A stretch of 64,000 nt of DNA from the NCBI GenBank assembly GCA_016124755.1, contig WGNA01000005.1, positions 62,001-126,000 on the forward strand. Direction: 5' to 3'. A program made the position numbers and the translations under genes. Shown in pieces: positions 15,464 through 19,177 of this stretch. Every line of letters begins with the position of its first letter. Positions within the stretch are counted from its first letter, which is position 1. The stretch is from Bacteroidota bacterium (lineage in GTDB: Bacteria; Bacteroidota; Bacteroidia; NS11-12g; UBA9320). Below the pieces are notes generated by a model. It searched no databases. It had not been told where the DNA came from and saw nothing but the letters and a program-made list of their open reading frames with translations.

Positions 15464-15488
15464 ATCCCGTTTGGCGGGATTATTTTTT
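15464..15488 (+). terminator. Rho-independent terminator
   Basis: ATCCCG (15464-15469), loop TTTGG, CGGGAT (15475-15480), then TATTTTTTTT. A perfect 6-bp GC-rich stem with a T tract, 10 bases after the stop of the small membrane protein. Confidence 0.85.
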
Positions 15489-15496
15489 TTGCTTTT

Positions 15497-15513
15497 ACTT
15501 TGCAATACAAAGT
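15497..15513. promoter_or_regulatory. Palindromic operator ACTTTG-N5-CAAAGT, copy 1
   Basis: Half-sites at 15497-15502 and 15508-15513, spacer CAATA. It ends 7 bases before the ATG at 15521. The same half-sites and the same 5-base spacer recur at 16486-16502. A TTTG at 15470 followed by TTACTTTG at 15495 could make the site overlap a weak -7 box. The probable ligand is the winged-helix protein encoded at 16179. Confidence 0.6.
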
Positions 15514-15520
15514 TATTTGT

Positions 15521-16147
15521 ATGAGCGAAAAAGATCATCTGCAACAACTGGCTGAAATAAGAGTAATGATGGAGAGGTCGTCACGATTTATTTCGTTGAG
15601 CGGACTTAGCGGTGTACTTGCCGGAACCTATGCACTAATAGGTGCTGCGTTCGTAAACTACAAACTGGGATTAATCCGGTACCACGTGAACCAAAGCGGA
15701 ATTCAACTCACCGATATCGGCAGTTACCTGATTGTTGCTGCACTCGTGATGTTCTTTTCTTTGGTGACCGGCTATTTATTAACACGACGCAGAGCCAGAA
15801 GCAATCGTCAAAAAATCTGGGATCGTGTGGGACTGCGAATGCTCATTAACCTGAGCATCCCGATTTCGATCGGAGGCCTGTTCGCACTGGTAATGATTAC
15901 CCGCGGCTATTACGATCTCATTTCTTCTTCCATGCTCGTATTTTACGGACTCGGATTAATCAATGGCGGCAAATACACTTTCGACGATATACGGTATCTC
16001 GGAATGTGCGAAGTAATTCTGGGTATTGCCGATTTGCTTTTGCCGGGACACGGATTGTTATTCTGGTCTCTGGGTTTCGGTGTTTTACACATTCTATATG
16101 GTACAAGAATGTGGTGGAAGTATGAAAGAACTCCCGCAGAATCCTGA
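15521..16147 (+). CDS. Conserved-type membrane protein of a regulator-linked module, unknown function
   Basis: 208 residues from ATG 15521. The frame extends back to a TTG inside the preceding terminator, which is rejected. A short N-terminal amphipathic part (HLQQLAEIRVMMERSSRF) precedes about five to six membrane segments (GVLAGTYALIGAAFVNY, YLIVAALVMFFSLVTGYLL, ALVMITRGYYDLI and others). The palindromic operator lies directly before it and the winged-helix regulator starts 31 bp after it. The pairing of such a membrane protein with a small HTH_34-like regulator recurs in Bacteroidota as I recall it; the role is unknown. Confidence 0.75.
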   Translation: MSEKDHLQQLAEIRVMMERSSRFISLSGLSGVLAGTYALIGAAFVNYKLGLIRYHVNQSGIQLTDIGSYLIVAALVMFFSLVTGYLLTRRRARSNRQKIWDRVGLRMLINLSIPISIGGLFALVMITRGYYDLISSSMLVFYGLGLINGGKYTFDDIRYLGMCEVILGIADLLLPGHGLLFWSLGFGVLHILYGTRMWWKYERTPAES

Positions 16148-16178
16148 AAATTTGTAACACCTTAAATCGCCTGAAGCA

Positions 16179-16469
16179 GTGATTCAAAACATTAATAAAT
16201 CTTTTGAAAGCCGGGTTCGCCTGGGGATAATGAGCGCTCTTATGGTGAACGAATGGCTTGACTTTAATACACTGAAAGATATGCTGCAAGTAACCGATGG
16301 CAACCTGTCGAGCCACATTCAGGCTTTAGAAAAAGAAAAATTTGTTGAGATGAAAAAGGAATTTGTCGGTCGAAGGCCCAAAACTTCTTTTCGGGTAACA
16401 AAGGATGGAAAGAAAGCTTTCTCTCTTCACCTCAATGCACTTGAACAAATCTTGAAAGGTCTGAGCTAA
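16179..16469 (+). CDS. Winged-helix transcriptional regulator (HTH_34/MarR-like)
   Basis: 96 residues from GTG at 16179 (no ATG is available upstream of the fold). Residues about 8-85 form one winged helix: SRVRLGIMSALMVNE, then FNTLKDMLQVTDGNLSSHI as the helix-turn-helix and RRPKTSFRVTKDGKKAF as the wing. There is no sensor domain, so any signal must come from a partner, perhaps the membrane protein encoded just upstream. Identical palindromes stand before the upstream gene and directly after this gene, as expected for a dimeric repressor of its own module. Confidence 0.88.
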   Translation: MIQNINKSFESRVRLGIMSALMVNEWLDFNTLKDMLQVTDGNLSSHIQALEKEKFVEMKKEFVGRRPKTSFRVTKDGKKAFSLHLNALEQILKGLS

Positions 16470-16485
16470 AATTTTTTATACACTC

Positions 16486-16502
16486 ACTTTGAAATGCAAA
16501 GT
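16486..16502. promoter_or_regulatory. Palindromic operator ACTTTG-N5-CAAAGT, copy 2
   Basis: Half-sites at 16486-16491 and 16497-16502, spacer AAATG. It lies 17 bases after the regulator stop and 86 bases before the ATG at 16589. Half-sites and spacing match copy 1 exactly while the flanks and spacer sequence differ, which speaks for selection on the site itself. Confidence 0.6.
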
Positions 16503-16588
16503 TCTTTACATTACTAAATAAACAAGATAGCTCCATCCTTACAAAAAGACATCAATCGGTATAAGATGAAATCAATAGAATCAAATAT

Positions 16589-18043
16589 ATGAACACCAGA
16601 AATTTCCCTTATGTGGGAACGGCAACCTTGTTGTTTGCCGCTCTCTTCTACAGAATAAACTTTTCGTTCGGATTAAACTGGTTTGTTTTTCTAAGCCTGA
16701 TAGCGCTGGCGACCTGGTTTAAAATCCGACAGCAAAATACCATTGGTTGGTTCGTTCCAACGATGACCATTTTTGCCGGTTTGGGCATGTTTCTTCATTG
16801 CACAGGTATCGCTGTATTTGCCTGCATTTTGAGTCTGCTAATGATTTCTGCAACCATCATTGCACCGAACTCAGGGGTTTTAGAAAGTCTTGTAATTTCA
16901 ATCTTCAATCTTATTCTGTCTCCCTTTCGGTTGGGAATCGATCTAATAAAATCCCTGAAAAAAGATAAATCAGACGATGCCCAGCACTCGGTGAAACGGT
17001 CTGCAACTCACTGGTTAATTCCGATTATTCTGGTAGTTGTATTTGTAATTCTCTATTATAATTCTTCCCCTGCTTTCCGCTTTCTGATTGATCAGTTCGA
17101 CTGGACAAAACTGGTAGAATTAATGGCGACTCTTTGGATTGGTTTGCTAATTAGTCATACCGCTTTCCGCTCCTACCTCCCACAGTTTCGCTTCCGAAAA
17201 ACCAATCCGGAATCGGAAAATAAATTATCACTGTTCCGATCAGAACTCCGGAAGCCCTGGTCTGTTTCCATGGCCTTACTTAGTTTACTTCTGGGTTTTG
17301 TGGTTTTTGCCGACCTCTGGTATCGATTTTACGCACGCAGTCTCCCTCCCGAATTAACGCTCAGTGAATATGTTCATCAGGGTGTTTTTTCGCTCGTTAT
17401 TTCCATTCTGCTCGCAACTTTTTTAAGTGTTCGGTTAAACACATCAGACGCAAATGCCGAGACTGGAATAATGCGATACGGCATTTACTCATTTCTGATT
17501 CTCAATTGTGTTTTTGTAATTCAAAATATATTCAGAAACTCAGACTATATAAACCATTTCGGACTAACGGAGAAGCGGATTGCGGTTTATTTTTATCTGG
17601 CTTTTTGTTTTATCGCTCTCATAATAACCTTTATCTATCTCGGTAAAAAAGCCGGAGTTTTCAGGTTCTACAAAATATTGGGAAATACAGCTTTTGCCCT
17701 GGTTGTGGCTGCTTCACTTTTAAACTGGTCTGTAGTGATTGTAAATTATAATTTAAAACACACCGGAACGGAGCAAATTGGTTACGACTTCGATTACATG
17801 TTATCACTCAATCGCGCGGTGTTGCCTTTACTAATTCCTCACGAGCCGGAAATGAGTAAATCTCAGATTCGAAAACTCAACCGCAGAGTTAGCCGCAATA
17901 TTTCCAGAGAAACCAGACAACTCAGCGACATACGGGGTTTTGTTTGGGATCACTATCAATTATTACAAGAATTAAAAAAGTTAAAACCCGAACTGGTTGA
18001 AGACGCCCTTAAAGAAGAGTATGTCGATGAATTTGAAGATTAA
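16589..18043 (+). CDS. Large polytopic membrane protein, DUF4153/DUF4173-like
   Basis: 484 residues with about twelve hydrophobic segments and a soluble C-terminus of about 70 residues rich in Arg, Glu and Asp (SKSQIRKLNRRVSRNISRET). Layout and local sequence (NLKHTGTEQIGYDFDYMLSL) resemble DUF4153/DUF4173 proteins, whose function is unknown. The second palindromic operator stands upstream, so it is probably under the same regulator as 15521-16469. The next gene follows 4 bp after the stop and should be co-transcribed. Confidence 0.78.
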   Translation: MNTRNFPYVGTATLLFAALFYRINFSFGLNWFVFLSLIALATWFKIRQQNTIGWFVPTMTIFAGLGMFLHCTGIAVFACILSLLMISATIIAPNSGVLESLVISIFNLILSPFRLGIDLIKSLKKDKSDDAQHSVKRSATHWLIPIILVVVFVILYYNSSPAFRFLIDQFDWTKLVELMATLWIGLLISHTAFRSYLPQFRFRKTNPESENKLSLFRSELRKPWSVSMALLSLLLGFVVFADLWYRFYARSLPPELTLSEYVHQGVFSLVISILLATFLSVRLNTSDANAETGIMRYGIYSFLILNCVFVIQNIFRNSDYINHFGLTEKRIAVYFYLAFCFIALIITFIYLGKKAGVFRFYKILGNTAFALVVAASLLNWSVVIVNYNLKHTGTEQIGYDFDYMLSLNRAVLPLLIPHEPEMSKSQIRKLNRRVSRNISRETRQLSDIRGFVWDHYQLLQELKKLKPELVEDALKEEYVDEFED

Positions 18044-18047
18044 TAAA

Positions 18048-18776
18048 ATGAATAATACAATTCAATTCCCGTATAAAACCTTACTAATGGTTACCGGATT
18101 TGCCATCTCCATGGCGCTTCTTGAAAGTGCTGTTGTGATTTATCTGAGAACTCTGATGTATCCGGATGGTTTCGAATTTCCCCTGAGAACACTGAATAAA
18201 AATCTGGCAGTCGTTGAAATTTGCCGAGAAGCTGCAACGATCTTTATGCTGATCGCCATCGGTTGGCTGTCGGGAAAGAATGGGAACTCCCGGTTTGCCT
18301 GGTTTCTTCATGCCTTTGCCGTTTGGGATATTTTCTATTACGTGTTTCTCAAAGTGTTTTTAAACTGGCCGGCATCTATGGCTACATGGGATGTTTTGTT
18401 TCTGATTCCCGTTATGTGGGTCGGTCCGGTGTGGGCTCCGGTTTTACTGTCTTTGCTAATGATTTGGTTAGCGATGATTATTATTAAAATCAATATTCGG
18501 GGTCAGATACCCATTGGCAAAAGGTGGTATGCACTCATCGGTGGAGCGGTTATCTGCATTGTAGCCTTTTGTTGGGATGTGGTGATTTTTCTGCAAAAGC
18601 TATCCGGTTCAAAATGGTACGATGCCGATGCAATTTTTAAATCGAACTACGTTCCTAGCCATTTCCCCCTGCTGCTTTTTATAGCCGGATTAGTAACGAT
18701 TATAGCTGCTTCTATTGATTATTATCGATCAAATAAATTCGGAAAACGAACTCTTCACTTTGGTCAACTCATGTGA
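18048..18776 (+). CDS. Polytopic membrane protein, unknown function
   Basis: 242 residues from ATG 18048. An in-frame TTG within the preceding gene is rejected because the ATG lies 4 bp after that gene's stop. Six or seven membrane helices. The stretch AVWDIFYYVFLKV then WDVLFLIPVMWVGPVWAPVL is conserved in a family of uncharacterised membrane proteins I have seen in several phyla, but I cannot attach a function. It overlaps the following kinase gene by 4 bp, suggesting one transcript from 16589 to 19177. Confidence 0.72.
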   Translation: MNNTIQFPYKTLLMVTGFAISMALLESAVVIYLRTLMYPDGFEFPLRTLNKNLAVVEICREAATIFMLIAIGWLSGKNGNSRFAWFLHAFAVWDIFYYVFLKVFLNWPASMATWDVLFLIPVMWVGPVWAPVLLSLLMIWLAMIIIKINIRGQIPIGKRWYALIGGAVICIVAFCWDVVIFLQKLSGSKWYDADAIFKSNYVPSHFPLLLFIAGLVTIIAASIDYYRSNKFGKRTLHFGQLM

Positions 18777-19177
18777 TTTCGCTCATTATTTTTGTTCGCA
18801 GTATGTTGAGATGGCTTAAAAGTGCACGATATGCAACCAATGGGATTCGCAATTTTTTTTTGAAAGAAAGAAATGCTCAAATTCAATTCGTTCTTTTTCT
18901 GATTGCTATAATCTCGGGAGTAATCTTAAAAATTTCCACAACAGAATGGAGTCTGGTTCTACTCTGTTCAGCCATGGTTTTCGGCCTTGAACTAATTAAT
19001 TCTTCCATCGAATCGCTTCTTGATCACCTGCATCCGGAAGAGCACAAAATAATTGGAAAGTCGAAAGATCTTGCAGCTGGCGGAGTCTTGTTGGTTTCCG
19101 TTTTTTCCGCCGTTGTGGGTGGAATCATTTTTCTACCCAAATACATCCATTACTTCACCACCTTATTCGCACAATAA
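18773..19177 (+). CDS. Diacylglycerol kinase / undecaprenol kinase family protein
   Basis: 134 residues from GTG 18773, which overlaps the previous stop; ATG at 18803 is an alternative start. The family signature is clear: FGLELINSSIESLLDHLHPE followed by HKIIGKSKDLAAGGVL, with three membrane helices, the usual DgkA/UdpK plan. The enzyme phosphorylates diacylglycerol or undecaprenol at the inner membrane; in most non-enteric bacteria undecaprenol is the substrate, recycling the cell-wall lipid carrier. Which one applies here is not decided. Its 3' end overlaps the convergent YkuK-like gene by 28 bp. Confidence 0.9.
   Translation: MISLIIFVRSMLRWLKSARYATNGIRNFFLKERNAQIQFVLFLIAIISGVILKISTTEWSLVLLCSAMVFGLELINSSIESLLDHLHPEEHKIIGKSKDLAAGGVLLVSVFSAVVGGIIFLPKYIHYFTTLFAQ

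Follow-up and report, generated by a model that had tools for sequence, protein, structure and literature searches.

Sequence comparison makes it highly probable that a small, little-studied winged-helix regulator of the HTH_34 family acts, as a dimer, to repress its own operon, which it shares with a membrane-protein gene (MP), as well as the downstream DUF4153 or CreD operon, through a palindromic operator, ACTTTG-N5-CAAAGT, and that distal envelope genes are included in the same control. Regulator and palindrome co-occur across genomes, the palindrome overlaps promoter elements at the sequence level, and the same kinds of target genes recur beside it. The observation from which this analysis started, made in an initial annotation of the window (the whole 64-kb stretch of DNA that was analysed), was correct, and is stronger than first stated.

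The initial annotation had described two copies of the palindrome with identical arms and identical 5-base spacing. Direct reading of the window confirmed both, as ACTTTG-CAATA-CAAAGT at 15497-15513, and as ACTTTG-AAATG-CAAAGT at 16486-16502. The locus contains the following features:

15464-15490: terminator-like hairpin ATCCCG/CGGGAT (hairpin 15464-15480) with a T-run, ending directly before the 5′ operator; its loop supplies the -33-like TTTG
15470-15473, forward strand: -33-like TTTG, by reading, inside the hairpin loop and 21 nt before TTACTTTG, compared with 19 nt in the class consensus
15495-15502, forward strand: -7-like box TTACTTTG, which shares its final six bases with the palindrome as the left arm
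15497-15513, no strand: predicted 5′ operator
15514-15518: third half-site of the 5′ operator, by reading, TATTT, an imperfect DCTTT
15521-16147, forward strand: MP, a 208-aa membrane protein and candidate sensor or antagonist of the regulator, from alignment and structure model
16179-16469, forward strand: HTH_34 winged-helix regulator, 96 aa, GTG start (PF13601, 1ub9, structure model)
16472-16477, forward strand: T-run before the 3′ operator, by reading
16486-16502, no strand: predicted 3′ operator
16503-16507, forward strand: third half-site TCTTT, which fits the extended pattern with DCTTT
16589-18043, forward strand: DUF4153 gene (PF13687, 117.6 bits), the proposed target of the 3′ operator
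18048-18776, forward strand: 242-aa membrane protein with no Pfam family match, probably in the same operon as DUF4153; relatives lie downstream of the regulator in 10/80 loci
18773-19177, forward strand: diacylglycerol kinase gene (PF01219, 105.1 bits), possibly in the same operon; relatives lie downstream in 6/80 loci

The gene after the 3′ operator had been called DUF4153/DUF4173-like; the first half of this label was borne out, and DUF4173 was absent among its Pfam matches.

The two copies are the only exact ones in the window, and only three were found in the 4.05 Mb of the genome, compared with none of the reversed pattern. The window holds 13 occurrences of one arm and 20 of the other, giving an expectation of 0.004 pairs at 5-base spacing. 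Twenty perfect 6-5-6 palindromes are present in the window, and only the ACTTTG arm occurs twice. Among dinucleotide-preserving shuffles of the window, 1/60 contained any identical-arm pair within 1.5 kb. When two mismatches were allowed, the palindrome was not enriched in the window (6 versus 4.6 expected) or in the genome (199 versus 407 for the reversed pattern), indicating that only near-exact copies are meaningful; weak, two-mismatch sites were set aside, and near-exact copies were used. A chance origin of the pair is unlikely from the window alone, and the comparison with other genomes settles the question.

Conservation of the palindrome beside orthologous genes had been named beforehand as one of the points on which the reading would stand or fall, and this conservation held phylum-wide. 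A match was found in 13/58 relatives (own genome included). Close orthologues, with 55-73% identity, were found in nine relatives. In every one of these the two sites are present with no more than one mismatch, and in most of the nine the exact copies are confined to the flanking sites. Two genomes (G005 and G007) have a CreD homologue inside the operon, between the MP and regulator genes, which places the 5′ site further away; the NF008712 match in G005, on a partial protein, is below cut-off. A database scan led to 80 fetched named loci, mostly from Bacteroidota with one from Ignavibacteria. L052 is apparently the G009 locus a second time, the two contigs being equally long. These loci (748,199 bp) contain 119 exact and 32 one-mismatch copies, whereas the reversed pattern has no exact copy and a single one-mismatch copy; at least one exact copy of the palindrome is present in 69/80. 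With at most one mismatch, the 5′ site stands before the MP gene in 79/80 loci, the 3′ site follows the regulator in 66/80, and both are present in 65/80; the 3′ site is absent at this threshold from 14/80 loci, some of which lie on cut contigs. The distance from the 5′ site to the first ATG is mostly 7-9 nt, and the distance from the regulator stop codon to the 3′ site is 15-27 nt in 57/66. No site was found near a second, weakly similar protein of the own genome (26% identity), and distant HTH_34 homologues, with the recognition helix SKGNLS, SAGNLS or TAGNLS, have the site in 0/5 cases (L027-L030, L322).

The consensus of Bacteroidota promoters comprises a -7 element, TAnnTTTG, and a TTTG near -33, according to PMC7366714 and PMC9723704. 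At the 5′ sites, the left arm provides the -7 box: a T is present at position -1 in 79/80, position 0 is split between A (39%) and T (61%), and a TTG lies approximately 19 nt further upstream (at -24, within one base) in 61/80, giving these sites both elements of a primary-sigma promoter. The 3′ sites lack this combination, with T at -1 in 44/69 and TTG in 1/69, and the distal sites have T at -1 in 38/42. The earlier suggestion that the arms overlap a -7 element thus stands for the 5′ sites, and holds more weakly for the 3′ sites. The -7 box is placed at -12 to -5 in PMC9723704, so that transcription from the 5′ sites would start inside the palindrome, and a bound protein would cover both the -7 box and the start.

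Beyond the left arm, the site profiles showed that the right arm, CAAAGT, is conserved at 84-100% per base, that the spacer is not wholly free (NANTN is favoured), and that an additional element, DCTTT, is conserved directly after the right arm. In the own genome, two of the three sites have an imperfect third half-site, TATTT. A run of at least six T shortly before the palindrome was found at 60/69 3′ sites, compared with 4/80 5′ sites, and occupies positions -14 to -8. Its distance to the palindrome is fixed, and its distance to the stop codon is variable, indicating that the T-run is part of the control region. Neither a terminator nor a -33 box accounts for the run. The third half-site, the T-run and the distal targets described below go beyond the initial annotation.

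These differences between 5′ and 3′ sites bear on the direction of control. The same protein, acting through the same operator, might repress its own promoter and activate the 3′ promoter, together with some distal promoters, that have no -33 box, making it an activator or a dual regulator. The near-absence of TTG at the 3′ sites, and the presence there of a different upstream element, the locked T-run, would suit such a scheme. However, the palindrome overlaps a -7-like box at the 3′ and distal sites as well, in the proportions given above, and the third half-site is common to 5′ and 3′ sites. Proteins bound over the position of the -7 box usually block polymerase. We regard activation as unlikely, and repression at both operons as the preferred reading.

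Palindrome and regulator tend to occur in the same genomes. In a phylum sample of 296 genomes, the exact palindrome was present in 86/113 genomes with the regulator, and in 25/183 without it; copies numbered 170, versus 95 for the reversed control, in the former, and 28 versus 85 in the latter. The extended pattern, ACTTTGN5CAAAGT-DCTTT, was found in 67/80 class genomes with the regulator (and was absent from 13/80), compared with 0/167 without it, and its reversed control was found in none of the 247. The class sample (247 genomes) overlaps the phylum sample (296), with some genomes numbered below G353 in both. Twenty-seven phylum genomes have the regulator and no exact palindrome; twenty of these were fetched, and most carry sites with 1-2 mismatches at the expected places.

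A relaxed scan further suggested that site and protein vary together. The inner base of the right arm is altered in 34/47 sites of regulators with GNLATH, versus 6/167 sites of regulators with GNLASH or GNLSSH. Three of the four GNLASH regulators in the GNLATH family share the altered 5′ base. A clean residue-to-base rule was considered as proof of recognition and rejected, since the relation follows one family; because it tracks lineage, the relation supports recognition by this protein, and does not prove it.

It has to be asked whether the palindrome is read mainly by another regulator, for instance one of the PadR type, with the HTH_34 protein a bystander. Genome G008, which has a distant HTH_34 homologue only and no close orthologue, carries an exact copy (L038:1501-1517) before a PadR-PspC operon. 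That copy, however, is followed by ACCTT rather than DCTTT, the extended site is missing from every one of the 167 class genomes without the HTH_34 regulator, and in regulator-less phylum genomes the palindrome falls below its control, all of which make another reader very improbable. Least probable of all is that the palindrome is a mere promoter element or RNA hairpin rather than a protein operator: the left arm does fit the -7 box, but neither the right arm nor DCTTT is an element of promoters, one would not expect a general promoter motif to track the genomes of one regulator, and the predicted start inside the palindrome at the 5′ sites, derived from the box position in PMC9723704, would leave the left arm out of the RNA.

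With the HTH_34 protein as the preferred reader, the genes that follow the sites outline a candidate regulon. DUF4153 was found in 39/80 loci and CreD in 26/80, in each case no more than 4.5 kb downstream of the regulator, and one locus has both. The list of 125 extended sites includes 34, from 25 genomes, that lie more than 2.5 kb from a regulator. The third exact copy in the own genome (L031:6360-6376, contig C5) is directly before an exosortase-N/VIT-domain protein, and the pair encoded there matches TIGR04477 and then TIGR04476, both over cut-off. Besides this case, exosortase-N/VIT proteins stand behind distal sites in G231, G302, and G538; in G542 and G498 they come after the local 3′ site. 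A related protein of VIT type comes after a site in G223, and after a site and one short ORF in G363. As a control, G166, which has an exosortase-N/VIT gene and no regulator, has no site. Two exact palindromes in G247 lie 27 bp apart (L198:2949-2992), with DCTTT in neither direction.

A small membrane protein follows nine distal sites, which are spread over several families. Its homologues were compared between the full set of 80 class genomes that have the regulator and 80 of the 167 that lack it: an upstream site was found for 9/15 in the former and 0/5 in the latter, a test that is not independent, because at least seven of the nine were first found via the site. DUF4153 follows distal sites in three genomes, and a C92 amidase stands after four distal sites, all from genomes labelled as the same genus. 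Sites also precede Coq4-like proteins in three genomes; of two searched against Pfam, one is over and one just below the cut-off. Three loci of one family (L292-L294, from G397, G427, and G530) have a distal site before a Poly_export (PF02563) lipoprotein-like gene, the Pfam match having been obtained on L292 only. The remaining distal sites precede genes of no recurring family.

The 96-aa regulator belongs to HTH_34 (PF13601), with 102.5 bits against a cut-off of 27, over profile positions 1-80 of 80. Its structure model is a winged helix (pLDDT 94.4), and its nearest solved relative, by sequence and fold, is PH1061 of Pyrococcus horikoshii (1ub9; sequence E 3.1e-9; Foldseek E 2.1e-6, 33% identity, TM 0.83). 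The SdpR family (NF033789, 12.8 bits versus a cut-off of 100), the ArsR/SmtB metalloregulators (NF033788, 27.1 versus 55), and the PadR family (PF03551, 20.0 versus 27) were each rejected, and the protein contains no cysteine. MP has no Pfam family over cut-off. It was aligned over 64 sequences, and its model (pLDDT 90.6) consists of six long helices plus one at the N terminus, with no Foldseek match at E ≤0.001. The best match in a second look, TMEM45A (Z 9.7, rmsd 5.4, 177 aligned), is within the possible chance range of helical bundles, and no fold is therefore claimed for MP.

In the proposed mechanism, the regulator would form a dimer, with each subunit contacting one arm of the palindrome. 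Since the predicted 5′ operator covers both the -7 box and the expected transcription start of the MP-regulator operon, binding would block RNA polymerase, making the protein an autorepressor. The 3′ operator would impose the same block on the next operon (DUF4153 here, CreD elsewhere), and distal copies would bring further envelope genes under common control, including, in the own genome, the exosortase-N/VIT operon. The third half-site would make the operator directional, and a second dimer may be recruited through it. MP nearly always adjoins the regulator in the same operon, which makes it the likely switch: it would hold the regulator at the membrane under envelope disturbance. That MP relieves repression is the weakest step of the scheme, suggested by operon linkage and by a likeness to SdpI/SdpR.

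SdpI holds SdpR at the membrane in Bacillus subtilis, according to PMC1626106. In both systems, a two-gene operon encodes a polytopic membrane protein together with a small autorepressor (presumptive here). However, the present regulator is an HTH_34 protein, far under the SdpR cut-off, and MP matches no SdpI family; the present system is found in Bacteroidota and has distal targets, and membrane capture is proposed from operon linkage. The CreD homologues after the regulator recall the CreD of enterobacteria. In E. coli, creD is under the control of the two-component system CreBC, whereas the candidate controller here is a one-component regulator. Exosortase N (XrtN) and its VIT-domain substrate are represented by the same pair in the own genome, here carrying a predicted operator.

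Autorepressors whose palindromic operator covers their own promoter are already known as a kind. In the open-licence literature, no report was found of this operator, its direction, its targets or its phylum-wide reach, and no paper was found there on HTH_34 by that name, or on the regulation of exosortase N. More tentatively, and with somewhat less than even confidence, the system may constitute a phylum-wide regulon for envelope surveillance in Bacteroidota, in which a switch, formed by a six-helix MP sensor and an HTH_34 autorepressor, acts through a directional operator of three half-sites set in the -7 box, and would set the expression of CreD/DUF4153, exosortase-N sorting with its VIT substrate, and other envelope genes. 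For several proteins without an assigned role (MP, DUF4153, small membrane proteins, and exosortase-N/VIT), the analysis provides a candidate regulon, and with it a DNA site that can be tested, across a major phylum.
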